Source: Pseudomonas cavernicola (GTDB lineage Bacteria; Pseudomonadota; Gammaproteobacteria; Pseudomonadales; Pseudomonadaceae). From it: DNA of 64,000 nt. The number at the start of each line of letters is the position of its first letter. Position 1 is the stretch's first letter. The stretch is from the NCBI RefSeq assembly GCF_003596405.1, contig NZ_QYUR01000002.1:1318501-1382500 (forward strand), written 5' to 3'. Under the pieces are notes generated by a model. That model was not told where the DNA came from. It was given only the letters and a program-made list of their open reading frames with translations, and did not search any database. The translations under genes were made by a program, and so were the position numbers. Below, one piece after another: positions 10,200 to 24,599 of the stretch.

Positions 10200-10434
10200 G
10201 ATTACCTCCCTATTCGGGCGCTAGCCCAAGGATGCCACAGGATCGAAGCTAGCGACTGCTGACTGCCCGCTCTTGGGCCGATTTCTGCGACTCACAAACA
10301 TGATGGTCAGATCGGGTGCAAATAGGTGGTCAGAATGAATGCAAATGCATGGTCAAGTCATGCAACTTCGCACTGCCGGTGTGGATACTTTTTGGTCTAC
10401 CCTTCCCTTTCCAGTCTTGCTTGAGGATTGCGCC

Positions 10435-11552: not shown

Positions 11553-12416
11553 CTACTTCGCCCGCTTGGCCGGCTCGGCTTCTTCCGCTTGCTTGGGCGG
11601 CATCGCCGGTTTGGTCTCGGCCGGCGCCCTGCGTGCGGACGCACCTTTTTTCTCGAGGCTGGCGCGCAATGCTTCCATGAGGTCGATGATCTGGGCTCCG
11701 CCCTTGGGCTCCTCGGCCATGGTGATCTCATGGCCGTCGACCTTTTTCTGCACTGCCGCTTCGATGCGCGCACCCACCTCGTCCGTGTAGGCGCTCGGGT
11801 CGAAGGTGTCGGAGGCCTGCTGCTCGATCAGCAGCTGCGCGAGCTTGAGCTCGGCGTCCTTTACTTCGGTCTTGGGGATGTCGATGTCCTTGATCGAACG
11901 AACCTCCTCGGCATAGAGCAGCTGCTGCATGACCAGGCCGTCCTCAACCGGCCGGATCATCACGATGTACTGCTTGCCGTGTGCCGCCCAGCGCCCAAGC
12001 GCGCAGCGCTTGGATTCGCGCAGCGCCCGTGTGAAAAGCGCATAGGCCTTGGCGCCGCCCTTGTCGGGGGCAAGGTAGTAGGCCTTGTCGAAGTACACCG
12101 GGTCGATCGTTTCGATCGGTACGAATTCGGTAATGTCGGCGCTGTGCGTGCCGGCTTCCTCGAGCGTCTTCAATTCTTCCGGCTCGAACATCACGTACTG
12201 GTCCTTGGCGAACTCGTAGCCCTTGACCATGTCCTCGCGCGCGACCGGGATGTCTTCCTTCGCGCAGAGGTACTGTTGCTTCAGGCGCGACCCGCAGCCC
12301 TTGTGCAGGAGGTTGAAGGAAATCGTGTGGCTCGCCTCGGTGGCCGAATACAGCTTCACCGGGATGGACACGAGACCAAACGAAACGGTCAGCGATGCAA
12401 TCGAACGTGCGGTCAT
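11553..12416 (-). CDS. ku: Ku protein, bacterial non-homologous end joining
   Basis: 287 aa. The start at 12416 has GGAGG 5 nt upstream; an upstream Met at 12431 is less well placed. The whole Ku core is present (SIASLTVSFGLVSIPVKLYS, LKQQYLC, IDPVYFDKAYYLAPDKG, KQYIVMIRP, LKLAQLLI). A basic, Ala/Pro-rich C-terminal tail of the kind that recruits LigD follows. Ku forms a homodimeric ring on double-strand break ends. It lies 17 bp downstream of ligD on the same strand, so the two form an operon. Ku/LigD systems are often chromosomal in Pseudomonas; here they are island cargo. Confidence 0.96.
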   Translation of the reverse strand: MTARSIASLTVSFGLVSIPVKLYSATEASHTISFNLLHKGCGSRLKQQYLCAKEDIPVAREDMVKGYEFAKDQYVMFEPEELKTLEEAGTHSADITEFVPIETIDPVYFDKAYYLAPDKGGAKAYALFTRALRESKRCALGRWAAHGKQYIVMIRPVEDGLVMQQLLYAEEVRSIKDIDIPKTEVKDAELKLAQLLIEQQASDTFDPSAYTDEVGARIEAAVQKKVDGHEITMAEEPKGGAQIIDLMEALRASLEKKGASARRAPAETKPAMPPKQAEEAEPAKRAK

Positions 12417-12433
12417 GACTACCTCCGACATCT

Positions 12434-15163
12434 TCAGGCCGTGCGGCCCGCCAAGGCGCGCGCGAGGTCCTGCTTGCGTTTCAGGGCGTCGCGCCAGCGA
12501 TCGCCCGCCTGGGTTAGTTGCATTATCACATTCGTGACCCGGAAGTCGAGTGGATGGGCGCCGGCCAGCTCCTCCCAGGTCAGCGGCATCGACACTGGAG
12601 CACCCGGCTCGCCGCGCGGGGAATAGACCACGTTCAGCGTCTTCCCGCGCGCATTCATGTTGTGGTCCATGAAGATCTTGCCGGTGCGCTTGGGCACGCT
12701 CCATTCCATGGTGATGTCCTTGGGATGCAAGTGCATCAGGTGGCGGCTGACCAGTTCGGACACGTGGCGCGCGGCGTCGAAATCGATCGTGCGCTTGATC
12801 GGGACGAACACGTGCAGGCCGGTCTTGCCGGAGGTCTTGACGATGGACTCCAGCGACATGTCCTGCAGCAATTCGCGCAGCCGGAACGCGATCTCCTTGC
12901 CCTTCTCGAACGCGACCACGTTGAGCTCCGGCTCCGCGCCCGGCGCTTCCTTGCCGGAGTAGATGTAGGGATCGATGTCGAACACGACGTAGTCGGGATA
13001 GTTAAGCACCGAACTTTCCATTGCTTCGAGCGAGCTGGCATAGTCCGTGGACTTGGAAATGGCGTCGGGTCCGAGCCTGGCGCGCGAATGCCAGACGTGG
13101 AATTCGAGGGTCCCCGACTGCGCCAGCCACATCAGCGTTGGCAGATTGTTGCAGAGCAGGTACTCGTGCTTCTCGTCCTTGTGTCCCGAGAACACGGTGA
13201 CGGTCTCGACGAACGCGGGACGTTCCTGCGTCCAGTGCTTCTGGAAGAAGCGTTGCCCTCGGATGCCGTCGGGCATGCGGATCATGGTGAGCGGGCGGTC
13301 TGCCAGGTGCGGCAGCATCAAGGGCGAGACCTGGGCGAGATAGCGCAGCAGGTCGCGCTTGGTCTGCGCCGGCTGCTGCAACGCTGGATCGGCGGGCCAG
13401 TAGACGCGATCGAGGTGGGTGAGGCGGATTCGATGAGGACCTACGGCGAGTTCCAAGGCGTTCTTGCTTTCCAGCTGCACCAGAATCTCTTCGACCTCAA
13501 GAATTCCAGAATCCGTTTTTGCTTTTTGTCCGTCATTCCCGCGAAGGCGCGGGAATGACGAGCTTGAGAGTTTCGGTTCTGCGGGGCGCCGCACCGTCTT
13601 CGGATCGATGTCGTCGCGTAGCCTCAGGAAAACCGGCGCACGCAGGGAGCCACCCTCAGTCCACTGCTGGAAGTTCACTTCGGCGACCAACTCCGGTTTC
13701 ACCCAGGTGACGGGTACATTGACCTCGGGCTTGTCGGTGAAGGGGCAAGTGGGGGTTTGCAGCGGCGCCAGGCGCGCCCGCACATGTGCCAGCGTGCGAT
13801 CGTCGAAGCCGGAACCGACGTGCGAGGCGTAGCGCAGCTCGCCCTTGTCCCAGAAGCCGATCAGCAGGGCGCCCAGTGGCGCGCGCGATCCTTTGCCCTG
13901 CGTGTAACCGCCGATAACGAAGTCGGCGCTGCGCATCGGTTTGACCTTCAGCCACAACGGCGAGCGCCGGCCGGCCTGGTAACGGCTGTCCATGCGCTTG
14001 CCGATCACGCCTTCGAAGCCGCTGGCGAGCGCCGCCGCCAGCAACGCAACCCCGTCCTGCGCGGCATGCACGAGCTGCACCAGGGGCGATGACAGCAGGC
14101 ATTGCACGAGATAACGGCGGCGCTCGCGATAGGGCATGTCGCGCAGGTCGATACCGGCGAAGTACAGCAGGTCGAAGCAGAAGAAGACCGCGGGCGTACT
14201 GCGGTCGGCCGCCGCGAGTTCACGGGGCGTCTTCAGCTGGACGCGATTTTGCAGCGCGTTGAACGACGGCTTGCCGCTGGCGTCGAATGCGACGAGCTCG
14301 CCGTCGAGGATCATGCCGTCCACAGCCTGCTGGCCGAGTTCCGCCACCAGGGTCGGGAAGGCGCCGACCAGGTCCAGGCCCCGACGCGATCGCAGCCGCA
14401 CGCCGTGCCGGTCGATGAAGGCGAGCACGCGATAGCCGTCGAGCTTCGGCTCCCACATCCAGTCGGCATGGTGGAACGGCGTGTCGCCGACTTCCGCCAG
14501 CATCGGCGCTAGCTTGGTGGGCATTGGTGCGACCTCGCCGGCAGGGACGAGCCGGGCGGCGGGGATGCGGTGCGCGGGAACGACCTTGAGGTCCGCGACC
14601 GCCACGCCGGAGAGCACCGAACGGTTCTGCGCGGTGACGTCATTCGTCGTCGTGAACCGGTCCTTGTGCTTGATCAGCAGCCAGCTCTTCGCGTCCTTGG
14701 TGCGCACCAGCGCGAACGATCCCTTCAACTTTTCGCCACGCAGCTGGATGCTGAGCTTGCCGGCAGCGATTCCGTCGCGAATCCGGCGCTCGGCTTCGGC
14801 GCGATCGTGGAACCAGGTGCAGCCTTCGTCCGGGCTGTAGACGCCGCAATCCCACACGATTACTTCGCCCGCGCCGTATTGCCCAGGCGGAATCACGCCC
14901 TCGAAGGAGGCGTAGTCGTACGGATGGTCTTCCACGAATACGGCCAGGCGCTTTTCGCCCGGATCGAGCGATGGCCCCTTGGGCACGGCCCAGGACTTCA
15001 GCACGCCATCGCATTCGAGCCGGAAGTCGTAGTGCAGCTGCCGCGCTGAATGCTGCTGGACGACGAAGAGCAGCGGCCCGGCCCCACCATCCGGCAGCAC
15101 CGGGGCTGGCTCGGGGGTGGCTTCGAAGCGGCGCTTGGCGGAATATTCGCTGAGCTTCGACAT
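12434..15163 (-). CDS. ligD: LigD, multifunctional ATP-dependent DNA ligase of NHEJ
   Basis: 909 aa in the Pseudomonas-type order phosphoesterase-ligase-polymerase. Residues about 30-150 are the 3'-phosphoesterase (LHYDFRLE, SWAVPKGPS). About 215-530 is the ATP-dependent ligase, with adenylated Lys240 in EPKLDGYR. About 610-900 is the primase-like polymerase (FDIDPY metal-binding pair, TSGKTGLHVFVP). The enzyme trims, fills and seals ends brought by Ku. Oddity: the linker between ligase and polymerase (about residues 533-546) contains an in-frame palindromic repeat (13531-13560) coding FPRLRGNDGQ. The frame stays open, so the protein should be functional. Confidence 0.96.
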   Translation of the reverse strand: MSKLSEYSAKRRFEATPEPAPVLPDGGAGPLLFVVQQHSARQLHYDFRLECDGVLKSWAVPKGPSLDPGEKRLAVFVEDHPYDYASFEGVIPPGQYGAGEVIVWDCGVYSPDEGCTWFHDRAEAERRIRDGIAAGKLSIQLRGEKLKGSFALVRTKDAKSWLLIKHKDRFTTTNDVTAQNRSVLSGVAVADLKVVPAHRIPAARLVPAGEVAPMPTKLAPMLAEVGDTPFHHADWMWEPKLDGYRVLAFIDRHGVRLRSRRGLDLVGAFPTLVAELGQQAVDGMILDGELVAFDASGKPSFNALQNRVQLKTPRELAAADRSTPAVFFCFDLLYFAGIDLRDMPYRERRRYLVQCLLSSPLVQLVHAAQDGVALLAAALASGFEGVIGKRMDSRYQAGRRSPLWLKVKPMRSADFVIGGYTQGKGSRAPLGALLIGFWDKGELRYASHVGSGFDDRTLAHVRARLAPLQTPTCPFTDKPEVNVPVTWVKPELVAEVNFQQWTEGGSLRAPVFLRLRDDIDPKTVRRPAEPKLSSSSFPRLRGNDGQKAKTDSGILEVEEILVQLESKNALELAVGPHRIRLTHLDRVYWPADPALQQPAQTKRDLLRYLAQVSPLMLPHLADRPLTMIRMPDGIRGQRFFQKHWTQERPAFVETVTVFSGHKDEKHEYLLCNNLPTLMWLAQSGTLEFHVWHSRARLGPDAISKSTDYASSLEAMESSVLNYPDYVVFDIDPYIYSGKEAPGAEPELNVVAFEKGKEIAFRLRELLQDMSLESIVKTSGKTGLHVFVPIKRTIDFDAARHVSELVSRHLMHLHPKDITMEWSVPKRTGKIFMDHNMNARGKTLNVVYSPRGEPGAPVSMPLTWEELAGAHPLDFRVTNVIMQLTQAGDRWRDALKRKQDLARALAGRTA
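13531..13560. repeat. Perfect 30-bp palindromic repeat inside ligD
   Basis: Arms CGTCATTCCCGCG and CGCGGGAATGACG, 13 bp each, perfect, around AAGG. The text (ATTCCCGCG ... CGCGGGAAT) is the well-known type of dispersed intergenic repeat of many beta- and gammaproteobacteria. Here it lies in frame in the flexible linker of LigD, adding about ten residues without a stop codon. Confidence 0.9.
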
Positions 15164-15316
15164 GTCGGACTATTTACCAGTGATCAAGCATTTGCATACG
15201 GAAAGACCGCTTCCGCGAGCCACCCGGCCGGCTCACGTTTGACGGACTAGCTCTGGGGTGAAGCGGACTGTCGTGGTTCGGCTGCCAACTAAATGTAGCG
15301 TAATTGGCAGTCCGAG

Positions 15317-15650
15317 TTGATGCGGCTGTTAGGCAGCGACGGTGGGCAATGCTTCGCTTGCTCTTGCTTGGTGGCGTTGTACCGACCAATCGCGGGGCAT
15401 TTGGTGCAGGCTATGTGGCGGGGAGCAGGGCGCACCCATGCCTTCAAACGCTGGAAGGGCGACGCCCCGGCAGTTTCGGACGAAGCGCACTTCTTGACCC
15501 TGGCATGGTGCCCGTAGCGCTACGTCCGAAGCAAGAGAAGAGACGATTGAGTACTTTTTGACCGAATACAGGAAAATGCTGGAAGAAAACCTGGATGACT
15601 ACATTAATAATTTCAGTTCTTATATGCAGCTCCCAGATGAAAATGCATAA
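15317..15650 (+). pseudogene. Broken ORF of the first cassette
   Basis: One frame runs from 15317 (ATG) to a stop at about 15515 and contains CFACSCLVALYRPIAGH and DEAHFLTLAWCP. An overlapping frame, open from 15498, continues as EETIEYFLTEYRKMLEENLD and ends exactly at the attC start (stop 15648-15650). Together they look like one cassette gene of about 110 residues with a frameshift near 15500-15515. I cannot name the product. Alternatively only a short peptide from the TTG at 15558 is real. Confidence 0.35.
15328..15334 (+). other. Possible degenerate right end of an attC site opening the plus-strand array
   Basis: GTTAGGC matches the R' core (GTTRRRY). A near partner TGCCAAC occurs at about 15280 but lacks one T. 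The stem between them is not convincing. If real, it marks the left edge of the first cassette; the stretch 15164-15316 holds no recognisable gene. Confidence 0.35.
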
Positions 15651-15720
15651 CAAGTCGCTCAAATCGTTCGTTTCGCTCACTGGGACCGCGTTCCGCGGCC
15701 CCTTAGCTTAATTGTTGGGC
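15645..15720 (+). other. attC recombination site 1 (Pseudomonas type)
   Basis: R'' GCATAAC and R' GTTGGGC bound a 76-bp imperfect palindrome with the internal text AATCGTTCG TTTCGCTCAC and a GCGG/CCGC tip. The site matches, in order and length, the attC near 21428 read on the other strand. It follows the first cassette ORF directly, as attC sites do. Confidence 0.9.
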
Positions 15721-15739
15721 ACTAATGTAGGAGGCACAT

Positions 15740-16009
15740 ATGGACGAGGACCTTGAGCGAATGTCGCGCGAACAACTCATGGCCGAGGTTAGAAAGCTGC
15801 GGCAAGGAGTGCGTGCGCATCGTGATTGCTCCGGCCATGACCTATGCTGGCACCATCCGGCGCTCTGGGCTCTTCTACCGGAGAAGTCAGATCCTCTTCC
15901 CAAAGTACCAAGCTGGCCGCAGTTCCTGCGTGGGTGCATCAAGTATCGACAGTCCCTTGATGAGCAGGCGGCCAACGCTCCCAGAACCGATGAACCATAT
16001 TCCGAGTAA
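15740..16009 (+). CDS. Cassette-borne conserved hypothetical protein
   Basis: 89 aa, starting 19 nt after attC 1 with TAGGAGG as ribosome site, the usual spacing for a gene cassette. The sequence (MSREQLMAEVRKLRQGVRAH, HDLCWHHPALWALLPEK, WPQFLRGCIKYRQSLDEQA) has a short N-terminal helix and a Trp/Pro-rich centre. I have the impression of similar proteins in other integron cassettes, but the function is unknown. It would be transcribed from an array promoter to the left, which is not seen because no integrase/Pc region lies in the window. Confidence 0.85.
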   Translation: MDEDLERMSREQLMAEVRKLRQGVRAHRDCSGHDLCWHHPALWALLPEKSDPLPKVPSWPQFLRGCIKYRQSLDEQAANAPRTDEPYSE

Positions 16010-16015
16010 GCAGCG

Positions 16016-16045
16016 TGCCCAACAAGCGGCAGCAGACCCACATTT
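16016..16045 (+). other. Truncated attC site after the second cassette
   Basis: R''-like GCCCAAC followed by AAGCGGCAGCAGACCC, directly after the 89-aa gene. No matching GTTGGGC occurs before the next gene, so the right half is missing and the two cassettes are fused. Confidence 0.55.
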
Positions 16046-16091
16046 CGTGTAAACAATAGCCATCAATTCCAACGGAAAGGGGAGAATCATC

Positions 16092-16538
16092 ATGGCGGGA
16101 AATACTGTTCGTCTGCACCGAGTACTGCACGCACCGCCGGAGCGGGTGTATCGCGCATTCCTTACCGCCGAGGCACTGGCGAAGTGGATTCCACCAAATG
16201 GCTTTACCGCTACCGTCCATCACATGGAGCCCAGGGTTGGTGGAACATTCAAAATGTCATTCACAAACTTCACCACCCAGCAGAGCCATTCTTTTGGTGG
16301 TGAGTACCTTGAACTGGTTCCAAACGAGTTACTTCGCTACACCGACAAATTTGACGACCCAAATCTTCCTGGCGTCATGCAGGTCACGGTTGCGCTGAAG
16401 GCAGTTTCCTGCGGCACCGACTTGAGCATTGTGCAGGAAGGTATTCCCGACGTAATTCCGGTTGAAATGTGCTATCTCGGGTGGCAGGAGTCGCTAGTTC
16501 TGCTCGCAAAGCTCGTTGAGCCTGAAATTCAGCAGTAA
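16092..16538 (+). CDS. SRPBCC/AHSA1-family protein in a gene cassette
   Basis: 148 aa with the START-like AHSA1 layout: RVLHAPPERVYRAFLTAEAL at the N-terminus, KWIPPNGF, then VGGTFKMSF, and a C-terminal helix GWQESLVLLAKLVEPE. The family forms a helix-grip cavity for hydrophobic ligands; known members are ATPase activators, cyclases or of unknown role. AAAGGGGAGAATCATC upstream supplies the ribosome site. Complete attC 2 follows 14 nt after the stop. Such proteins have been found in integron cassettes, but no phenotype can be assigned. Confidence 0.88.
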   Translation: MAGNTVRLHRVLHAPPERVYRAFLTAEALAKWIPPNGFTATVHHMEPRVGGTFKMSFTNFTTQQSHSFGGEYLELVPNELLRYTDKFDDPNLPGVMQVTVALKAVSCGTDLSIVQEGIPDVIPVEMCYLGWQESLVLLAKLVEPEIQQ

Positions 16539-16551
16539 TGGGTGCGTCGGC

Positions 16552-16614
16552 GCCCAACAATTCGTTGAAGGCCGACGGTCCTGACGGCCCGCGGCCTTAA
16601 CTCAAACGTTAGGC
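16552..16614 (+). other. attC recombination site 2
   Basis: R'' GCCCAAC and R' GTTAGGC, 63 bp apart end to end, with an internal stem of AAGGCCG pairing with CGGCCTT. It sits between the SRPBCC and DUF4287 cassettes. Confidence 0.88.
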
Positions 16615-16632
16615 AGAAATGGAGTTCGCATC

Positions 16633-16851
16633 ATGACCGAAGATACAAAAATAAAAGGACCAGCGTCGTACTTCCCTTCAATTGAAAAGAAGTATGGGCA
16701 CCCAATAACCCACTGGCTAAATCTGCTGGAAACAGTAAGCGGCAAGAAGCATATGGAAATGGTGACCTGGCTCAAAACTGTATACGGTATGGGTCATGGT
16801 CACGCTAACGCTTTAGTTGCGCATTATCTAGCCACTGCTAAAAGCGCCTAA
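16633..16851 (+). CDS. DUF4287-domain small cassette protein
   Basis: 72 aa. It matches the DUF4287 pattern: ASYFPSIEKKYGHPITHW, KKHMEMVTWLKTVYGMGHGH, NALVAHYLA. Proteins of this type are small helical domains of unknown function, sometimes fused to DUF5655. It starts 18 nt after attC 2, and its stop codon overlaps the R'' core of attC 3, the compact cassette arrangement. Confidence 0.88.
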   Translation: MTEDTKIKGPASYFPSIEKKYGHPITHWLNLLETVSGKKHMEMVTWLKTVYGMGHGHANALVAHYLATAKSA

Positions 16852-16916
16852 CAATGCGCAAATCGTTCGCTTCGCTCACTGGGACCGGCGCCGGCCCCTT
16901 AGCTTAAGTACGGAGC
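16846..16916 (+). other. attC recombination site 3 with degenerate right core
   Basis: R'' GCCTAAC, then AAATCGTTCG CTTCGCTCAC as in attC 1, a GGCGCC tip and CCCCTTAGCTTAAG. The right core, aligned to attC 1, reads ACGGAGC instead of GTTGGGC, so the invariant GTT is lost. The site is probably inactive, which would lock the flanking cassettes together. Confidence 0.8.
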
Positions 16917-16924
16917 GCCAGATT

Positions 16925-17527
16925 ATGAGCCGCCGAAGAACACCCATTACCAAGGAGCTGCCTAAGGGCTTCGCGAACGATACGTACCGCAAGGCCTGCG
17001 CGGAGCCCTTTCCGTGGCTTGTCAAGGCAAGGGAGATGCGGCGAGCCGCCGATCTCGTCTGGGCTCAGTTCTCCTCTGAACTAACGGCATTCGCATCGGG
17101 TGGCGATGACAGTGGGGAACCGTTCACCGGTAGTGTTGCGGTGATGCTCTATGCCTTCGCCTTAGAAAACCTACTCAAGGCAGGCCTTGCGGCAAAGGGA
17201 GTAGCAGTCGGTCCGAACGGCAACTTTGCTCTCAAGTCGCACAAACTCGAAGACCTTGCGGATGATCTTGCTCTCACTCTTGAGCCAGACGAAAGAGAAC
17301 TCATGGAGAGGCTCGAGCACTTTCTTGAATGGGCCGGGCGCTATCCGATTCCGCTTCTTGCCGAGGCGCTCTACCCTCGTGCCATGCTTGATGGTAGTAA
17401 GGCAGCCATGTATGGTCTTTCGAGCGGCGATCGAGTGCGAGTTGACGCTCTACTCGCCAAAGTCCATGCAACCCTACCAACAGAAGAGGAAGCGCTGGTT
17501 CGGTATGTGCGAACGATCGGCGCCTAA
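16925..17527 (+). CDS. Cassette-borne hypothetical protein, possibly HEPN-like
   Basis: 200 aa from the ATG at 16925 with GGAG 10 nt upstream. I do not recognise a named family. Residues about 70-90 (VAVMLYAFALENLLKAGLAA) resemble the membrane-like helix of HEPN-type all-helical domains, followed by a Lys/His segment (ALKSHKLEDLADDLAL), a spacing seen in HEPN proteins. No R-x4-6-H nuclease motif is evident. It ends at attC 4, overlapping it by the stop codon. Confidence 0.75.
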   Translation: MSRRRTPITKELPKGFANDTYRKACAEPFPWLVKAREMRRAADLVWAQFSSELTAFASGGDDSGEPFTGSVAVMLYAFALENLLKAGLAAKGVAVGPNGNFALKSHKLEDLADDLALTLEPDERELMERLEHFLEWAGRYPIPLLAEALYPRAMLDGSKAAMYGLSSGDRVRVDALLAKVHATLPTEEEALVRYVRTIGA

Positions 17528-17599
17528 CCCCTCCATCGAGCGAACAGCCATAGGCGGGCTTCGCCTACCCGCGTCTGCCGCTCATGTCGAAAGTTAGGC
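17522..17599 (+). other. attC recombination site 4 (ATCGAGCGAAC type)
   Basis: R'' GCCTAAC and R' GTTAGGC bound 78 bp. The left part CCCTCCATCGAGCGAAC differs from the Pseudomonas-type attC sites and resembles sites I associate with Xanthomonas-like arrays. The central GTAGGCGAAGCC-type stem is strong (GGCGGGCTTCGCC). Confidence 0.85.
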
Positions 17600-17601
17600 C
17601 T

Positions 17602-18567
17602 ATGAAACGACACTCGGAGCACTCGCCTATTCTTGAAGTCGACGCGTCCGGCTTTGCCACGCAGGTTGGCACAACGTCGGCCTTCACAACTGTCGATAGC
17701 TCACCGTATGCCGGCATCAAGGCGAGGGCATTGTCCCTTGTTGATGTAATCAAGTCCCACGGGCTGAACCCGAGGAAGAGTCAATCGCTGCAGCAGCTCA
17801 TCGATATGACGGTTGCAATGTCGGATTCGTGGGACAGTGGCTCCAAAGAGGATGTCACCTTCGCGCAGTTGCTGGCTGCAGCTCAAGTCGAACGAATTTC
17901 CACGGCAGTGCTGTCGGCAGCGCGCTGTGAAGCACCGAGTAGCACCTTGCGAAGCCTGTTGACGGGAAGCCTCGACCTCCTTGGTCGCGAACAATCGAAG
18001 GCGAAAGATACGCTCTGGGAACTTGAACTACTCCGGATCCTCGTCGGCCACAAGATCGACGCAAGACTGGACGAGCCTGATCTCTCAGTTCGCTTCTCCG
18101 GTGCACCCGTGGGGTTCGCCTGCAAGAAGATCTACTCCGAAGGCAACGTTTCAAAGGTTCTCTCAAACGCCGTGGCGCAGATCGAACGGGAGGGTGAGTT
18201 CGGAATCATTGCCCTCAATCTCGATGACCTGCTGCCTGAGAATGCGATCTTGAAAGCGCCCACGCTGGCGGTCATGTCGTCAATGCTGGAGGAAAGAAAC
18301 AACGCATTTCTTCGGGCCCATGAACGCCACCTACGCAAATACCTGACTCCGGGCCGCGCAATATCCGCTCTGGTTTCCTGTGCCGCTATCGCAGACGTGG
18401 AGAATGCGGAGAATAGATTCATGAATGCGAGGCAAACCACTCTGTGGCAGATACCAGGGATACCGGACGCGAAGGCTGAGCAAATGAATCAATTCCTTGC
18501 TGCCATGAGCGCTCGGCATAGGCCTAACCCTTCCATCGAGCGAACGTTCAAAAGGCCGCGCGACTAA
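17602..18567 (+). CDS. Cassette-borne protein with a possible PD-(D/E)XK-like core
   Basis: 321 aa from the ATG at 17602, only 2 nt after attC 4 and without a clear ribosome site; an ATG at 17584 lies inside attC. The middle (LWELELLRILVGHKIDARLD, EPDLSVRFSGAPVGFACKKI, VSKVLSNAVAQIEREGEFGI) has the E / D / x-x-K order of restriction-like nucleases, but the usual Glu before the Lys is Cys (Ala-Cys-Lys-Lys), so activity is doubtful. The last 14 residues (RPNPSIERTFKRPRD) are encoded by attC 5, so the original stop may be lost. The function is unknown. Confidence 0.75.
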   Translation: MKRHSEHSPILEVDASGFATQVGTTSAFTTVDSSPYAGIKARALSLVDVIKSHGLNPRKSQSLQQLIDMTVAMSDSWDSGSKEDVTFAQLLAAAQVERISTAVLSAARCEAPSSTLRSLLTGSLDLLGREQSKAKDTLWELELLRILVGHKIDARLDEPDLSVRFSGAPVGFACKKIYSEGNVSKVLSNAVAQIEREGEFGIIALNLDDLLPENAILKAPTLAVMSSMLEERNNAFLRAHERHLRKYLTPGRAISALVSCAAIADVENAENRFMNARQTTLWQIPGIPDAKAEQMNQFLAAMSARHRPNPSIERTFKRPRD

Positions 18568-18570
18568 CCG
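18532..18570 (+). other. Truncated attC site 5
   Basis: Left half only: GCCTAACCCTTCCATCGAG CGAACG, nearly identical to the left of attC 4. There is no GTTAGGC partner; instead the text runs directly into palindrome repeat B. It marks the end of the plus-strand array and also codes the C-terminus of the preceding ORF. Confidence 0.75.
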
Positions 18571-18618
18571 CAAAGGGTCGACTCCGGCCTGTCGCGAAAG
18601 GCAGAAGTCGACCCTTTG
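18571..18618. repeat. Palindrome-type repeat, copy B (perfect 13-bp arms)
   Basis: CAAAGGGTCGACT at 18571-18583 pairs perfectly with AGTCGACCCTTTG at 18606-18618. Inside, GGCCT pairs with AGGC around GTCGCGAA. It abuts truncated attC 5. The same text, degenerate, abuts truncated attC 7 on the other side of the 18.6-21.0 kb segment (copy C). Confidence 0.9.
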
Positions 18619-18665
18619 CAGACGGTCGAATCTGCCTACGAAATCAGGGGTGATTCACTGCTACC

Positions 18666-18992
18666 TCAACCGCCCCATATGCGCTCGCTGGTAAATGTCC
18701 TGACCCTGCCAAGTTGCGAATCGTAATAAACCTCGTCGCCACAGAAGATATCTTCTTCATGTGGGCCATATGCTTTGTCAATTTCGTCTTCAGCTCCTGG
18801 TTGGTTGTAGCCAAGGAAAAACGAGTCTTGAATAACGGCGGAAAGCGCAAATTTTTTATTAGGGCGCCTTTTTAAGTAAGACAGCAATTGCTCAGATGAC
18901 GAAAAATATCGTGGCGGGTCATTAGTGCCTATCGCCGAGCAATGTGTTAGCTTCACCTCAAAAAGTTGGCGACCACTGTATGTTAGTATCAT
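18666..18992 (-). CDS. Hypothetical protein, 108 aa
   Basis: Unrecognised. The start at 18992 has CAGGTGA 7-8 nt upstream, a good ribosome site. The sequence begins with beta-like MILTYSGRQLFEVKL, has an acidic middle (GAEDEIDKAYGPHEEDIF) and ends with a basic strand. The composition is AT-rich. It lies on the strand opposite to the cassettes at 15-18.5 kb. A small frameshifted gene (19040-19223) lies 47 bp upstream on the same strand, so the two probably form a pair. No attC follows it. Confidence 0.65.
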   Translation of the reverse strand: MILTYSGRQLFEVKLTHCSAIGTNDPPRYFSSSEQLLSYLKRRPNKKFALSAVIQDSFFLGYNQPGAEDEIDKAYGPHEEDIFCGDEVYYDSQLGRVRTFTSERIWGG

Positions 18993-19039
18993 TTCGATTC
19001 ACCTGATTTCTAAATTTTTCATTATTACTCACAGCTGAA

Positions 19040-19223
19040 TTAAAAACACTTCAGCAAGAGCCAGTTGTAATCCTCAATATCAGACATTGCTATAGGAGAG
19101 CTAAAAGCTTCCATTCCCATTCAGCGAGAAATAACCATAGCCCAAGTGCAGAAATTCCTGTGGTTCGATTGTAGTTTTCGTATCTACGTCGACAATCAGA
19201 TCGATATCAACGTAGTGAATCAT
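19040..19223 (-). pseudogene. Small gene with a strong ribosome site, probably frameshifted
   Basis: An ATG at 19223 is preceded by GGAGGTGAT at optimal spacing. The frame codes MIHYVDIDLIVDVDTKTTIE and ends after 40 residues at 19101. If one G is skipped near 19115, reading continues as SSPIAMSDIEDYNWLLLKCF to a TAA at 19040, giving about 60 residues. The continued frame looks natural, so either the gene carries a one-base insertion or the 40-aa product is real. The 108-aa gene follows 47 bp downstream. The function is unknown. The AT-rich stretch 19224-19426 otherwise holds nothing I can name. Confidence 0.5.
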
Positions 19224-19426
19224 ACAATCACCTCCGCATGTACACTCATGACTCAATCAAAAAGGTTAGTACATAGAAAATATGGCCAGAGATTGTTTCG
19301 CGATTATATATAAAGCAAATAGCTGTTTAGGTAGGCGCGAGACAACGGATGGAATTTTTAAGCGTCAGCATAAAAGCTCCGCATATCAGACTGAGTGAAA
19401 ACCTAGCAGTCTAAGGACGGCCTGAA

Positions 19427-19460
19427 GACAATGCCCGTATCGACCGATACGGGCATTGTC
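19427..19460. promoter_or_regulatory. Perfect 34-bp hairpin before the IS1182 remnant
   Basis: Arms GACAATGCCCGTATC and GATACGGGCATTGTC, 15 bp each, perfect, with loop GACC, ending 4 nt before the ATG of the transposase fragment. It could be the IS's own translational-control hairpin or a terminator; GTTT follows but no longer T run. Confidence 0.6.
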
Positions 19461-19464
19461 GTTT

Positions 19465-19581
19465 ATGCGCTACATCCACGGAGAGGGGCGCCAGCAGAGC
19501 AGCCTGTTTCCGCCGTTGTTGGACGAGCTGGTTCCCGAGGACCATCTGGTGCGGGTGGCCTGCTGTGAATTTTCGCAGTAG
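19465..19581 (+). pseudogene. IS1182-family transposase, N-terminal fragment
   Basis: 38 codons starting MRYIHGEGRQQSSLFPPLLD and continuing ELVPEDHLVRV, the usual N-terminus of IS1182-type transposases. It then becomes unrelated sequence and ends at TAG 19579. The rest of the gene is absent. It is not part of the same copy as the remnant at 1.2-1.6 kb as far as can be seen, since the covered parts differ and the strands are opposite. The gap 19582-19941 holds no gene, only a degenerate repeat near 19600-19650. Confidence 0.85.
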
Positions 19582-19941
19582 TAGCGCGCATTTGTATGTC
19601 CGATTCTGGCCGATTTCTGCCTGTCTTGACGGGCAGCAATCCAATTCAGCCAGTCATCAGTTGTTTTCGAGCCACTCATAGGCTTGGTATGGAAGAGAGT
19701 AAATCGCCTCACTCAACTGGCCAGCGGGTCAATGCGGCTGACCGTTACCTCGCCTGTCGAGGCATGCCAGGCAATTTCTTTGTTTTGGGCCAGAAGCCAT
19801 TCGCTCAAATCAATGCAGACGACCGGACAAATTTATTTTCAAAAAACGAAATGTTAGGAGGGCGTGGAGGCTGTTACTGCTGCTCATGCAGAAACGGTAG
19901 GTTTGTCTCCAAAATGAAATTGTACGCCAGGAGCGTCACAC

Positions 19942-20946
19942 ATGAATGCGTCCCCAACTGATCACACACCTGACCTCATGGCTGCGGCGGAGGACGTCCT
20001 CGTCGCCGAGCAATGGGCTTCCATCTCGTTGTTACAGCGCAGACTCAAGCTAGGCTACAGTGTTGCCCGTTCATTGATGGACGCACTCGAGAGAAACGGA
20101 GTGGTCAGTACCCTGCATGTCCATGGTTTTCGCACCCTTACCCCGACGTATATGAGGAAAACAGAGTCTGCACCGCAGATGTCAAGGCGTGAGAAATATA
20201 CTCGCAAGGTTTTTGAGACGGCACTTTTTCTCTGGGAGACTCACGAGGAAGACGGATATGGCGATACACGAGCCATTAATTTTCTCTCGCCCGCCGGAAG
20301 AGAGGCAGTAAAACAGCGCAACGCTGTATTTAAGGTGCTTGATGGCGCACCCAATGCGTCGCTGTTTAGTGCCGCTGGCGCGCTTGCTGGGTGGCTGCTA
20401 GAAAATTTTCTCCCAGCTGTGGAGTACGGGGATATCAAGGCTGAGCTTGCGACGTTGTGTGCTGCCCAAGAATGGAGATACCAAAAGGTCACGGATACCG
20501 AAGAAAAATTGGAACGGTCTTATCTTCGCCTCGCTAGATACATTCGACGGGTATTAACTGAAGAGGCTCCGCCGAACACAAATATATTTATATATTTCAT
20601 TTGGGATGGCTTCATTCCTAAAGGGCACGGAAAGAACGGTCCGGGTAGGGGGGAGCATGTGGTGCCACGAAAGTTTTTATTACACGCGGGTGTTGGGTTG
20701 TTCAAAGCAGGTTGGCCGATTGAGGGCGTGGCACGCGTGCTGAGGCACAGCCTGGCTATCGTACATATCACATTGGATGAAAGTAAATTTCTGGATGCCA
20801 GCAGGATAAACGGCGGCTTGGGGCTCAAAGAGCTGATGCCAGAGGGTTGGCGCATAGGTGTTGACTGTATATACGAGCGTCTCCACAAGGCCGGGATTGC
20901 TTTTGATCCGCCAGCGGAACACGATGTATGCACGTGTGCCTTGTAA
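19942..20946 (+). CDS. FtsK gamma-domain protein with unrecognised C-terminal domain
   Basis: 334 aa from the ATG at 19942, with AGGAGCG upstream. Residues about 10-60 match the FtsK gamma winged helix (AAEDVLVAEQWASISLLQRR, then LKLGYSVARSLMDALERNGV), the module that reads KOPS sequences in the chromosome translocase; the ATPase motor is absent. The C-terminal ~120 residues contain GRGEHVVPRKF, HSLAIVHIT and LMPEGWRIG. I associate this pattern with proteins of plasmids and ICEs; Glu-His-x-x-Pro hints at an HNH-like fold, unproven. It lies between the two cassette arrays and has no attC. Confidence 0.75.
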   Translation: MNASPTDHTPDLMAAAEDVLVAEQWASISLLQRRLKLGYSVARSLMDALERNGVVSTLHVHGFRTLTPTYMRKTESAPQMSRREKYTRKVFETALFLWETHEEDGYGDTRAINFLSPAGREAVKQRNAVFKVLDGAPNASLFSAAGALAGWLLENFLPAVEYGDIKAELATLCAAQEWRYQKVTDTEEKLERSYLRLARYIRRVLTEEAPPNTNIFIYFIWDGFIPKGHGKNGPGRGEHVVPRKFLLHAGVGLFKAGWPIEGVARVLRHSLAIVHITLDESKFLDASRINGGLGLKELMPEGWRIGVDCIYERLHKAGIAFDPPAEHDVCTCAL

Positions 20947-20984
20947 ATAATGAATCGCCACTCGTTTGCTAGACCTCGCTCCCG

Positions 20985-21040
20985 GCTGTTTTGGGTCGAC
21001 TGTCGTTTAATGCCACCGGCAGAAGTCCACCCTTTGCAGA
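20985..21040. repeat. Degenerate palindrome-type repeat, copy C
   Basis: TTTTGGGTCGACTGTCG and then CGGCAGAAGTCCACCCTTTG, an imperfect version of copy B in mirrored context: it lies directly beyond truncated attC 7. Confidence 0.65.
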
Positions 21041-21049
21041 CATTCATAA

Positions 21050-21074
21050 CGTCCTCTCGATTGAAGGGTTAGGT
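21050..21074 (-). other. Truncated attC site 7 of the minus-strand array
   Basis: On the minus strand, ACCTAACCCTTCAATCGAG follows the HNH gene and overlaps its stop, like the left halves of attC 4 and 5. No right half is present; repeat C follows. Confidence 0.65.
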
Positions 21075-21395
21075 GCCCGCATCGGTTTTGGGACTTGATA
21101 GTGCATTTCGCACAAGCTGAGAAACAGATTCTTCGTGTATGCCCTTACGCCAGCAGTACTTTGACTGAAGCCACAACTTTAGCTCCTTGGCTCCTTTGCT
21201 CGCATTGCAGGACATGCAGCACCTGGCGATGTTTCCGCGGGTAACGATTCTAGCGTCGTTGATGATGTGTTCCCAAGAGGGCTTGTTGCCACGAGTTTGT
21301 GCTGGAAGCAAAAAATCTACGCCGCAGTAAACACAGGCTGTATCTCGCGCCAACACCTCTTGTTCGAGCCAGTCCGGGATGTTCCATCTGTTCAC
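21069..21395 (-). CDS. HNH endonuclease-like cassette protein
   Basis: 108 aa from a GTG at 21395 with AAGGAGG 9 nt upstream, a strong site that supports the unusual start. HNH layout: Cys21-x-x-Cys24 (CVYC), His43 in WEHI, Asn46, and Cys60-x-x-Cys63 followed by NASKGAKEL. The zinc ribbon plus HNH core suggests a small nuclease, possibly a free-standing restriction-type or homing-type enzyme; the target is unknown. It starts just downstream of attC 6 read on the minus strand, so it is a cassette in an array inverted relative to 15-18.6 kb. Confidence 0.88.
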   Translation of the reverse strand: MNRWNIPDWLEQEVLARDTACVYCGVDFLLPAQTRGNKPSWEHIINDARIVTRGNIARCCMSCNASKGAKELKLWLQSKYCWRKGIHEESVSQLVRNALSSPKTDAGT

Positions 21396-21427
21396 AGTGA
21401 GCCTCCTTGCGGCATCTGTTACGAGGC

Positions 21428-21504
21428 GCCTAACGATCAGGTTAAGGGGCGGGCTTTAGCCCGTCCCAGTGAGCGCAACGAACGATTTGAACCAATTGTT
21501 ATAC
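21428..21504 (-). other. attC recombination site 6 (minus strand, Pseudomonas type)
   Basis: Read on the minus strand: R'' GTATAAC, then AAATCGTTCGTTGCGCTCAC TGGGACGGGC, a CTAAAG tip, CCCGCCCC and R' GTTAGGC. 77 bp. It aligns along its whole length with attC 1 in inverse orientation. It separates the protease cassette (upstream on the minus strand) from the HNH cassette. Confidence 0.9.
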
Positions 21505-21511
21505 GCTTTAG

Positions 21512-22348
21512 CTAAACAGTATCGGTAACGCCTTTTTTAGAGGCTGCAATTCTTCTATCGTTGTCGGCAGCAGCTTCGTTAAGTAGCTCCCGTATAGCAC
21601 TTACATGCCAAACTATCCCAAGGTCAGATTCGGAGTTTACTCGGCCTGAGTAGACCCCAAGAAACTCCCACACCTTATTTCCCGATAGCGTGCTGGAAGT
21701 TTTACCGTCTTTTGTAGACCTATAACCTGACGGGCGAAAGGCAATAACTGGTGAGCCTGATTGTCCCTGGCGTGTTCTACAATCAATTAAAAATACAGGC
21801 TTATCATGGTTTATTAGGCTTAGCTCCTGAGCCAAATAACCAGTAGCCCAAATAGGTAATTTTCCATAGGATGACAATCCAAATGGAAACCCAATGACAC
21901 TAATGTTTTCGGCTGGACTTATGACCAAATTAAAATTATCAAGATTAGTGTCAAAATAGTATGGGTACTTGGCTACATCACTGGCCCAGGTTAGATTGAG
22001 CGCCACAACATCTGCGCTTTCGCCTAATCTTGGGTGCTCAATCCAATATGGCGTTCCGTCATTCCGATACAGTGGAAGCTTTATTTTTACCCACTCTTTT
22101 CCAATATCTTCAAAATTTTCAATATTTTTGTGAAAGTGGATGACTATATTGTCGGGCACTGCTGCATGTGGAGATATGCATTTTCCTGTTTCTTGGTTTC
22201 GCCCGGTAACATTGTGTCTATTGGTAATTAGTGCGCAATGTGACTCCCTGTCGTTGGCTGCTAAAAATGCAGTTCCAGAGCTAAGTAGTGTCTCTCCAAA
22301 ATACATTTCTATATACAGGGATTTCGCGGTGGGGATTTCGATTTCCAT
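21512..22348 (-). CDS. Trypsin-like serine protease in a gene cassette
   Basis: 278 aa from the ATG at 22348; the frame is open to 22684, but the upstream part crosses a cassette boundary (GTTATAC at 22452-22458) and looks non-coding. A further ATG at 22423 is possible. The chymotrypsin-fold triad is visible: His45 in ITNRHN, Asp113 in SADVVAL, Ser197 in GQSGSP. There is no signal peptide or PDZ domain, so it is probably cytoplasmic, unlike HtrA. Cytoplasmic trypsin-like proteins occur in some defence systems, but here the gene stands alone. It ends 7 nt before attC 6. Confidence 0.87.
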   Translation of the reverse strand: MEIEIPTAKSLYIEMYFGETLLSSGTAFLAANDRESHCALITNRHNVTGRNQETGKCISPHAAVPDNIVIHFHKNIENFEDIGKEWVKIKLPLYRNDGTPYWIEHPRLGESADVVALNLTWASDVAKYPYYFDTNLDNFNLVISPAENISVIGFPFGLSSYGKLPIWATGYLAQELSLINHDKPVFLIDCRTRQGQSGSPVIAFRPSGYRSTKDGKTSSTLSGNKVWEFLGVYSGRVNSESDLGIVWHVSAIRELLNEAAADNDRRIAASKKGVTDTV

Positions 22349-22451
22349 ATTGCGCTCTGATGATCGCTTGATTTTGATGTGTCGTATGGGGAAGCGTATA
22401 ACTACTATTAGAGGACATGCCATGTCGCGTTTCTTGTCGTGATGGCGCGTC

Positions 22452-22458
22452 GTATAAC
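22452..22458 (-). other. Right core of a decayed attC bounding the protease cassette
   Basis: GTTATAC on the minus strand, identical to the inverse of R'' in attC 6. The left half of the site cannot be found upstream. The direct repeat ACGACAAGAAACG occurs on both sides of it. The gap 22459-22706 contains only palindrome-type repeat E (about 22615-22682). Confidence 0.45.
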
Positions 22459-22706
22459 GTTTCTTGTCGTCCTGTAAGTCCTCGTCTAGCTTAGAGGTGG
22501 TCGCGGCAAACGCGACATCGCCCAGAGAGAAACACGACAATGGTGACGGCAAGCCCTGCGGCCTTCTAGATTCGAAAGCAGCGTCGGTGACGCTACCCAT
22601 TTGCCTTCTCTGTGTCCACCGTCCGCTCCTGGCCGGTAGCTGCCTGTCACGATGGACTGCAATCGACCCACTGCGGTCGTTCAATTCGAAAGTTACCTGC
22701 CTTCGT

Positions 22707-22910
22707 CTATGAGCGCTTGGCCCCCAGCCCGTTTACAAGCGGAAGTCTATGGGGAATGATCTTCGTTGATTTGAGCAGATCAGATTTATGTAAAGCTCTT
22801 TTATCAATAGCTGCGCCGCCATAATACAATAGGGGCTCTAACGTCCAGGGAACTTCTCGGAGACCATAGTGAACGCCGGGGAATGTAAGGTCTGGGATTT
22901 TGGTTCGCAT
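22707..22910 (-). pseudogene. Truncated gene downstream of the island recombinase
   Basis: 67 codons from the ATG at 22910 (MRTKIPDLTFPGVHYGLREV, LEPLLYYGGAAID). It begins 24 nt after the recombinase stop on the same strand, so it was the next gene of that operon. It ends abruptly at 22707 where the repeat/cassette region begins. I do not recognise the sequence. Because comM islands and similar elements often encode several recombination proteins in a row, it may be the start of a second such gene; this is inference. Confidence 0.5.
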
Positions 22911-22934: not shown

Positions 22935-24215
22935 CTAAAGATTTTCATCTTGCTTTGAGACTAGCCCAAGGAACTCCGTGGTGAACTCATTTGCGGCCTC
23001 TTCTTTTATTGGGCTTTTCTCAAGGAACTTTATGTATTTAAGCGAGGAGGATTCGCTGCGGTGCAGGAGCGCTTCCTTGACGATGGCTATGGCATGAATC
23101 GCACCGCCAACCCTAATGGCGAGTCTTGCAAGCTCGGTTGCAAATGTGCAGCGTGACTGGTGAAAATGGAAATTCTGCAAAACGCTTAACTGACGGTTCC
23201 TTGCCTTTTCTCTGAGATGAAAAAGCTCCACATTTATTGCAGGGCTTTTGTCGCTTGCGCGCCGCGCATATGGATTTCCAAAGCGAGTCAGAAACAGAAG
23301 GTCCTTGTTATTGGTGTCTGCAAGAGCTTCACGTTTCAACCGTCGGGTGTCATATGCATATTGCTTTAGACGCTCCAATAGTGATTTAGTAATCCAAACG
23401 AAGCCGGATACGTTATATTTGGTTGCTACTCTAGGTGTCGCGTCTGGGCCAACATGTATTTTATAAAGTCCGCTAACACCAGGCTCCGGCAATGCATTAT
23501 TTATAGTTTGAATTTTTAAGTCGGAAATAGTCTGTATGCGCAGGCCGCTGAAGAATCCGAGCAGCAGCATAAGATATAATTCTTGTGACCCGTGAGTACG
23601 AGAAAACTCTAGAAGAGAATCCCGATCATTTGCGGAAATGGGAAGAAGGCCATCCTCGAGGCGATCTGAGGTAGATCTCCGATTCGGTATCATAAGATCA
23701 GTTGAAACGCATTCGATTGCACGCTTGAACCCGAAAACGTCGTGAACATGAATTCCGATGTTGCGCTCGGTCCACAGCGGCCAGTCGGAAGATATGATCT
23801 TATTTGTTTGAAGCCAACGGTATAGCTGTATGGCTACTCTCATTCTTTGGGTGACGGTTGCAGGGGCAAGGTGTCCGTCACCACGCTGTTTGATTAGAAA
23901 GCCGCGGTATCTATTCAGACATCTGTCGGCTTTTCTAACTGGAAAATGCCACCAGTCAACGCATGAAAACTCTAGCCAGTTCGCGTAGGACAATAGCGAT
24001 ACGGCTTTAGCATCGACTGTGGCGAGCGTAAGGTCTCGATCTAAAGCCTGCTCCATGAGCCATAAGTTGACTTCGCGCCAGGGCTTCCCGTCAGCCCAAA
24101 ATAACTGCGGTAATGAATTAATCGGATTTGTGTGTTGAACCGCTGACCAAGTTACTTGTTTGTCCAGAACTACCGCTCTGTGCTGTTTGAAATTAATCGC
24201 TTCGATAGTCGCCAT
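22935..24215 (-). CDS. Tyrosine recombinase (integrase) of the comM island
   Basis: 426 aa from the ATG at 24215 (GAGG 10 nt upstream). The N-terminal SAM-like core-binding region (about 90-170, LNRYRGFLIKQRGDGHLAPA) is followed by the catalytic domain: Arg in FFSGLRIQTI, a His-x-x-Arg box HQSR, then His and the nucleophile Tyr in LLHRSESSSLKYIKF. It lies within 150 bp of the comM/island junction and points away from comM, as an island integrase usually does. Its recombination would join attL/attR within comM. It is not an integron integrase: it lacks the IntI-specific insert, as far as can be read, and has no attI next to it. Confidence 0.9.
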   Translation of the reverse strand: MATIEAINFKQHRAVVLDKQVTWSAVQHTNPINSLPQLFWADGKPWREVNLWLMEQALDRDLTLATVDAKAVSLLSYANWLEFSCVDWWHFPVRKADRCLNRYRGFLIKQRGDGHLAPATVTQRMRVAIQLYRWLQTNKIISSDWPLWTERNIGIHVHDVFGFKRAIECVSTDLMIPNRRSTSDRLEDGLLPISANDRDSLLEFSRTHGSQELYLMLLLGFFSGLRIQTISDLKIQTINNALPEPGVSGLYKIHVGPDATPRVATKYNVSGFVWITKSLLERLKQYAYDTRRLKREALADTNNKDLLFLTRFGNPYARRASDKSPAINVELFHLREKARNRQLSVLQNFHFHQSRCTFATELARLAIRVGGAIHAIAIVKEALLHRSESSSLKYIKFLEKSPIKEEAANEFTTEFLGLVSKQDENL

Positions 24216-24361
24216 AGTTGTCTGCCTCTGATCAGGCGCGGCCCTGATCAAACGACGGATGTAGGCCAGCCTCTAAGGAGTCTTTCTACGTTAGGCGATA
24301 TCGACGGCCTGTCCATGGTTGTACGATGAACGGTGCGCTGCGATGTGGGTAACTAATCCGT

Positions 24362-24599
24362 ACCCGCCATCCTTGGGTAGGTCGGCGGGCGCCAGGTTCA
24401 AGGTGATGCGGCGCGGGGGGAAGTCGAAGCCGGAATTGAGGATGGCGCTGCGCACCCGATCCTTACTTTCCTTGACCGCCGTTTCCGGCAAGCCGACCAG
24501 TGCCAGCGACGGCAGGCCGTTGGCCAGATGGGCTTCGACGGTGACCGCCGGGGCTTCGACGCCGACTTGTGCGCGGCTATGGACGATGGCCAGAGACAT
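24362..24599 (-). pseudogene. comM: comM (YifB-like Mg-chelatase-type helicase), 5' fragment cut by the island
   Basis: The first ~79 codons (MSLAIVHSRAQVGVEAPAVT, LVGLPETAVKESKDRVRSAI, LNLAPADLPKDGG) match ComM. Intact proteins continue with RFDLAIAL; here the frame enters foreign sequence at 24361/24362 and stops at 24291. ComM is a hexameric helicase that extends branch migration during natural transformation, so the strain should be impaired in integrating long heterologous DNA unless another copy exists. The gene stands upstream of ubiK-glnK, its usual place. The 3' part must lie beyond the left end of the window. Confidence 0.93.

Follow-up and report, generated by a model that had tools for sequence, protein, structure and literature searches.

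Integron remnants and a probable inversion in a GInt-type island within comM of Pseudomonas cavernicola

Locus and genome

The locus described here is an island in the comM gene of Pseudomonas cavernicola (NCBI RefSeq assembly GCF_003596405.1). It carries gin genes of the GInt type and two arrays of integron cassettes that face each other. The genome is 5.63 Mb in 8 contigs with a completeness of 100%. The stretch that was analysed, referred to as the window, has a length of 64,000 bp and corresponds to C2:1318501-1382500 (contig NZ_QYUR01000002.1). Positions without a label are those of the window; C2, C3, C6 and C8 are contigs of this genome and L-numbers are compared loci from this genome or from relatives. 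A preliminary description of the window had proposed two opposed clusters of attC sites lacking an integron integrase (CALIN), situated in an island and probably inverted or captured twice.

The comM gene was found in two pieces. Residues 69-499 of the family model (TIGR00368) matched C2:1302011-1303270 and residues 1-76 matched C2:1342860-1343084. The second piece is a 5' fragment on the minus strand (24338-24599) and forms the right border of the island. Read by eye from the open reading frame (ORF) translations, the gene order is presumably comM-glnK-amtB, which along with the relatives would point to Pseudomonas in the broad sense. The comM pieces enclose ~39.6 kb, with ~15 kb lying to the left of the window and ~60% within it. 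The arrays therefore do lie in an island as proposed, namely a GInt-type island in comM.

The gin genes

Beside the comM 5' fragment lies ginA, encoding a tyrosine recombinase (22935-24251, minus strand; PF00589, 1.5e-6). Residues R238, H364, R367, H397 and Y406 fall in invariant columns of alignment A5 and are probably the catalytic residues. Next to ginA an N-terminal remnant of ginB of ~58 amino acids was found (22725-22892, minus strand; best E 3e-6 by tblastn with the ginB of relatives). The C-terminal ~70 amino acids of ginB lie left of the window on the plus strand (C2:1313082-1313280; best tblastn E 2e-16). This end of ginB is accompanied by ginC and ginD (C2:1313.08-1315.69k), ~28 kb from ginA and on the opposite strand.

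Of 149 genomes of the genus, 11 contained a relative of ginA at E ≤ 1e-30, the present one being among them. In the eight of these that were taken further, ginA was followed by a gene of ~570-600 codons, a third gene (~660-690 residues matched) and a small fourth gene. The ginC and ginD genes were matched in all eight, and ginB is represented here by its two end pieces only. The ginA product was 38-57% identical to those of 51 loci, mostly from Pseudomonas, and 31% identical to that of relative L113. By order, number and description the module appears to fit ginABCD as described for GInts (PMC5385486), the fit being to the description in that paper and not to its sequences.

Among the 51 loci the order ginA-B-C-D was collinear on one strand in 44, while seven were incomplete (L206, L233, L238, L244, L246, L250 and L251) and none was seen to be inverted. 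All eight further relatives likewise had the genes collinear, with possible overlap in genomes between these and the 51 loci. The 5' part of comM was located upstream of ginA in 12 of the 51 loci and in five of the eight further relatives, and was absent in the others. In three of those 12 (L231, L238 and L254) the insertion lies deeper in comM. Insertion at a specific site, as in GInts, is thus seen in the relatives. A contiguous ginABCD at one end is missing here, as ginB is split and ginC and ginD are inverted ~28 kb away. GInts are flanked by imperfect repeats of 10-11 nt; at the comM junctions the similarity seen by eye was limited to CGGGTACGG against a CGGTAGGCC-like sequence.

attC sites of the two arrays

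The attC sites were searched with a covariance model (R1) built from the integron loci of relatives only, as circularity was to be avoided. A match to TIGR02249 at E ≤ 1e-60 was found in 107 of 298 sampled genomes of the family and 18 stretches around such intI genes were extracted from relatives. R1 comprised 28 hand-picked, aligned attC sites from 13 intI-bearing loci, with none from this genome.

R1 identified four sites in the window with E values from 1.7e-21 to 1.1e-6, the best remaining match having an E value of 0.67. Three are on the plus strand: 15645-15720 (66.8 bits, E 2e-17), 16552-16614 (31.5 bits, E 1.1e-6), which is of another subtype and has a bottom-strand fold of z -4.4, and 16846-16914 (46.3 bits), in which the R' box GTTRRRY is lost. 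The fourth is on the minus strand at 21428-21504 (80.1 bits, E 1.7e-21). These four had been named in the preliminary description, and the model accepted both 15645 and 21428, the two sites for which its verdict had been held decisive. As a negative control 59 other GInt loci (~956 kb, some perhaps the same place twice) gave no match at E ≤ 0.01; the best E value was 0.15 in 20 of these loci and the other 39 had none at E ≤ 1.

A fifth proposed site, 17522-17599 on the plus strand, was missed by R1. Its end boxes pair, its bottom-strand fold with boxes paired has z -2.3 and the type recurs at L011:12977, so that it looks like an attC of a second type. Two of the three truncated sites that had been proposed (18532 and 21050) are first halves of this type. 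One is at 18522-18548 on the plus strand (24 bp similar to 17522) and the other, found by pattern match, is at 21051-21074 on the minus strand. The third, at 16016, consists of an R'' heptamer only (16017-16023, plus strand), which fits the cassette start at 15714 in 7/7 positions.

Cassettes

A cassette starts with its own R', for which complementarity to the R'' of the attC in the same cassette is expected. Eleven cassettes of the island were compared in this way, seven in the window and, by eye, four to its left. Eight matched in 7/7 positions, four of them in the window, and these eight carried six different R' sequences.

The plus array consists of about five cassettes. The first (15328-15714) has a doubtful 5' boundary, the R' GTTAGGC at 15328 fitting R'' in 6/7 positions. 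The next (15714-16614; R'/R'' 7/7) encodes an 89-amino-acid ORF and an AHSA1-family ORF (16092-16538; PF08327, 6.5e-31), and is possibly two fused cassettes, with the R'' heptamer mentioned above in its interior. It is followed by a cassette with a DUF4287 ORF at 16633-16851 (16608-16914; R'/R'' 7/7; PF14117, 2.6e-25), a cassette with a 200-amino-acid ORF which ends in the second-type attC with paired end boxes (16925-17599), and a cassette whose ORF reaches 18567 and which ends in the first of the half attC sites (17593-18548; R'/R'' 7/7). With three attC sites by R1, one by hand and no intI nearby, this array is a CALIN.

The minus array consists of an attI, cassette A and a truncated cassette B. 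Cassette A (21434-22401) encodes a trypsin-like protein of 279 amino acids (21512-22351) and owns the attC at 21428; its R' GTTATAC and R'' GTATAAC match in 7/7. The product matches PDC-S45 (2.8e-18), a candidate defence family, and Trypsin_2 at 3e-5, which is under the family cut-off. Cassette B (21069-21433) has an ORF of 108 amino acids (21069-21395) which is HNH-like by eye, with a weak PtuB match (1.4e-4) and R'/R'' 6/7, and ends in the other half attC. The first minus-strand cassette starts at 22401 and not at ~22458 as had been suggested. Cassettes bounded by attC, one feature of functional integrons, are thus present at the locus.

The segment between the arrays (18570-21041) had been described as not cassette-like, which was confirmed by the absence of R1 matches. 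It contains copies of a palindromic repeat at 18570-18619, 19598-19621 and 21018-21041, the first being 50 bp and self-inverted, and an FtsK-gamma ORF (19942-20946; PF09397, 3.1e-13). Positions 19465-19575 encode what we take to be a possible start of an IS1182-type transposase.

The attI of the minus array and the loss of intI

According to the preliminary description the window lacks attI. One was nevertheless identified at the head of the minus array, at 22402-22539 (minus strand), by similarity to attI regions beside the intI of relatives in alignment A4. Positions 22449-22556 are 79-85% identical over 102-108 bp to the region directly upstream of intI at eight places (L035, L039, L057, L058, L059, L060, L061 and L196; L042 equals L057 and L049 equals L058), with weaker similarity at others. 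The intI genes at the compared places pass the family cut-off, the genome match at L196 covering model positions 48-314 only. In A4 the homology begins at the cassette junction (22402), spans attI and ends ~7 codons into intI (22540-22562, plus strand, with a length difference of one base). It is followed by a palindromic repeat with its flank where intI is missing (22621-22725). The repeat itself was located by a motif match at 22621 and extends to ~22680, and 22642-22725 is 91% identical to L118. The ginB fragment comes next. Because the homology passes through attI into intI and then gives way to the repeat and ginB, the alignment indicates that the minus array is led by an attI, the rest of its intI being gone. 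Of an attI next to intI, as in a functional integron, the attI and the ~7-codon remnant are present and the rest of intI is missing. The description as a CALIN devoid of attI was therefore wrong for the right-hand array. A second copy of this attI lies at C2:2102597-2102731 (94%).

A point of inversion within attC at 22456 was considered and rejected. The sequence AAACGTTATAC is shared by this place and the last attC of the left cluster, yet in A4 position 22456 falls inside attI.

The facing arrays could have been inserted independently in opposite orientations at attG sites by an integrase acting in trans, in which case no inversion is needed for them to face each other. IntI use of attG sites is mentioned in the available text of the literature, the plus array shows no recognisable attI, and five of 15 attC clusters of the genome have no attI upstream. 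The minus array, with its attI followed by the start of intI, is the remnant of an integron and not an attG insertion, and the split gin operon shows an inversion in any case. This explanation is considered unlikely.

A probable inversion within the island

As judged from gene order, the division of the gin operon into halves that face opposite ways shows an inversion, because these halves are collinear in the relatives. The comparison with related islands proposed in the preliminary description thus supports an inversion, the operon being collinear in 44 of 51 loci. The array pieces and gin pieces were then placed in order and every single inversion was tried on their labels. Twelve single inversions restored gin collinearity and exactly one of these also brought all five array pieces into the same orientation. 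The stretch that it turns begins with the first attI group and closes with the plus array; the right break falls between the two half attC sites that face each other. A single inversion of ~33-36 kb, its right end inferred to lie in the non-cassette segment, would put the gin genes back in line and all arrays in one direction. The partial flip of the island may be why the two arrays face each other.

An inversion between inverted copies of attC, by IntI or by homologous recombination, would not involve the non-cassette segment. The candidate pairs are C2:1312842-1312903 or C2:1311373-1311443 with 21430-21501 of the window. No other inverted repeats joining distant parts of the island are matched as well as these (62 and 72 bp, 90%), and turning the stretch between them makes the gin genes collinear again. 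A recombination of the last left-hand attC with the attC of cassette A leaves a mixed orientation, however, with three of five pieces in agreement, and an 11-bp identity first taken as support lies inside attI and not at a cassette start. Such an event is judged improbable. It is very unlikely that the inversion is an assembly error. The assembly has 8 contigs, but no inverted repeat longer than 80 bp (at 75%) was found in the island, which makes a mis-join at a long repeat unlikely, and a simple mis-join does not explain the loss of ~440 ginB codons between the ends.

The reading preferred here, with a probability of roughly three in four, is that a GInt island in comM took up integrons, lost intI by deletion and then underwent the single inversion of ~33-36 kb that split the gin operon. 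One or more integrons would have entered the island with their cassettes in the gin orientation. The intI gene would then have been deleted, leaving the palindromic repeat beside attI. The inversion would have broken at one side within 18.5-21.05 kb and at the other somewhere from the comM remainder to the first attI. With most of the island turned, the gin operon would have been split and the plus array brought face to face with the minus array. The cassettes should be of the classical mobile kind, able to move only with an IntI provided in trans. With its ginB disrupted the island as a whole is expected to be immobile, since in the single GInt examined experimentally, according to the available text of PMC5385486, none of the four gin genes could be dispensed with.

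A number of points weigh against this history. The enumeration rests on features and labels chosen by the analyst, the inversion breakpoints are bracketed and not sequenced, and no relative was found with the same island uninverted. No attC was found in 9-20 kb of each of the 59 other GInt loci. The absence of ~440 ginB codons implies a deletion as well as an inversion. No attI was recognisable at the plus array (15165-15340 against loci of this genome; 15200-15345 against the compared loci). Two cassettes, namely that with the doubtful start at 15328 and cassette B, fit R'' in 6/7 positions, and one R' is lost. Bottom-strand folds were weak for 21428 (z -1.9), 15645 (z -1.1) and 16846 (z +1.3); single-strand folds clearly beat shuffles for 16552 and 17522 only.

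Of the two histories that had been suggested, inversion holds through the split gin operon, though it was not the right-hand array alone that turned; the inverted part is probably the ~33-36 kb to the left and in the middle. As for double capture, several integron pieces are present: at least three groups led by attI, two of them left of the window and one at 22.4 kb, plus the plus array without attI.

attI and attC in the rest of the genome

The lack of an integrase noted in the window extended to the whole assembly, in which no match exceeded the TIGR02249 cut-off, and hence also to the sequence just outside the window, where an integrase would have spoken against the preliminary description. 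There were 11 weaker matches, Xer-like ones among them, which were not individually sorted. An intI remnant at C6:598847-598966 adjoins an attI. Weaker remnants at other attI copies are suggested by tblastn, for which queries L028, L033, L037 and L045 were IntI and L023, L024, L042 and L049 were other proteins.

R1 gave at least 48 matches at E ≤ 1 in the genome, at least 41 of them at E < 1e-3; the count is a lower bound, as 150 of 2,708 first-look candidates were scored. Direct search of 13 loci of this genome added a few, such as L119:3214-3273. Forty attC sites were grouped into 15 clusters, leaving out seven weaker matches and a partial site at C6:227795, with which there would be 16 clusters. 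The partial site had no attI in the attI lists. In ten of the 15 clusters the attC sites are preceded on the same strand by an attI at a distance of 327-1050 bp. Two types of attI were found: type 1 with 14 genome matches (one weak and two being halves of one copy) and the type of the window with three, one of them weak. The halves, C8:565296-565453 and C8:563906-563984, are one copy split by an insert of ~1.3 kb. Two attI copies that are 96% identical lead cassette groups in the island left of the window (L114:3644-3877 and L114:9861-10110, at C2:1304.14k and 1310.38k). The leader upstream of type-1 copies was considered as a decayed intI, but showed only a weak match to IntI (36-38% over 77 amino acids), located mostly upstream of the intI start. 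In 14 further genomes of the genus, selected because they contain attI, the type-1 core had one to four matches each, and attC was present in at least 13 of these 14 among the matches listed.

Truncated ends of insertion sequences (IS) of the IS1111-attC type lie inside the attC of six clusters, 4-5 nt after R'' (L114:4841-4928, L115:5504, L116:4870, L117:8679, L118:4471 and L121:1034). This 3' segment common to six clusters was at first a candidate for a 3' end of the class 1 integron type. It was rejected as such, being the end of an IS1111-attC type IS, with an IS110-family transposase beside it in L067.

The palindromic repeat

The palindromic repeat of ~60 bp occurs in the window at 18570-18619, 19598, 21018-21041 and 22621, in L114 at 3636, 8281 and 9870, and at other places in the genome. 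Its motif GTCYGCTTYTGGCCGAWWGCWGCC had 22 genome matches with up to three mismatches and the reversed control had none. Eight of 21 motif occurrences are no more than 2 kb away from an attC or attI, compared to 0.40 expected, the motif having first been seen in this island. A set of 43 attI loci was examined, made up of 14 of this genome (the split copy counted twice, one weak) and 29 of the best-scoring ones of the genus, from 30 loci retained. With up to five mismatches the motif was present within ~820 bp upstream of attI in 13 of 33 loci that had lost intI and in none of 10 with intact intI (P 0.02; reversed control 0/43). Without this genome the counts were 5/19 and 0/10, which is not significant (P 0.13). 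Six attI copies share the upstream leader and the junction with the repeat: two in the island, C8:565k, C2:945k, C3:290k and, less clearly, C3:168k.

This link may reflect one truncated integron copied around, a repeat that promotes intI loss, or partly chance. The copies could form a dispersed family of integrase-free platforms, made up of attI and cassettes with the repeat in place of intI, which spread non-autonomously and depend on IntI in trans. This is put forward as a tentative and rather unlikely idea, its probability lowered because the association was not significant once this genome was left out.

Relation to known systems

The locus is a decayed and rearranged variant of known elements. 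Like the GInts in the available text of Bardaji et al. 2017 (PMC5385486), the island carries a terminal ginA next to the target gene, possesses ginC and ginD and holds cargo in between. It differs in its broken ginB, in ginC and ginD being inverted relative to ginA, and in cargo that includes integron arrays, which were not seen in the stretches of 9-20 kb at each of the 59 other loci. Two or more attC sites without intI nearby, scattered at several loci, resemble the CALINs of Xanthomonas, in which the available text of PMC12444791 describes CALINs away from the integron and the loss of intI. Here, in contrast, attI is kept at 10 of 15 clusters, including the minus array. Compared to a chromosomal integron with a decayed intI, the attI and attC are those of the genus' own integrons and an intI remnant is present on C6, but at least 10 places bear attI and none has an intI over the cut-off. 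Ends of IS1111-attC elements are shared with known insertion sequences that sit in attC; none was found in the arrays of the window and the copies elsewhere in this genome are truncated ends. Such elements were reportedly the subject of Tetu and Holmes 2008 and Post and Hall 2009. IS1111-family elements targeting attC are known from the available text of PMC11187229, and the delta-attI cassettes of mobile integrons are a different thing in that of PMC12901181.

What stands out most is that attI has outlived intI repeatedly within a single genome. No title or abstract was found on a genome with several arrays that are led by attI and lack intI, or on a GInt containing integron arrays, subscription journals being thinly covered by the search. 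Cassette clusters lacking an integrase are commonly interpreted as free attC arrays or as insertions at off-target sites. The attI upstream of so many of the clusters points to decayed integrons, and the retained attI would be overlooked if only intI and attC were searched for. If the repeat takes part in the loss of intI or the spread of attI units, this would be a new route of integron fragmentation and dispersal, and the repeat junctions make that route testable.

Other features of the window

The island carries Ku and LigD genes, an end-joining repair pair, at 11553-15163. An AIPR-family abortive-infection-like protein, weakly like MzaE, is encoded at 8086-9780. The island stretches 15-713 and 10339-11181 are 69% alike over 295 bp; the second encodes a SRAP-family protein and the first looks like one. 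A piece of a DDE transposase is located at 1197-1505. A group II intron lies outside the island at 28193-29986 and encodes a reverse transcriptase with a maturase domain (28395-29915).

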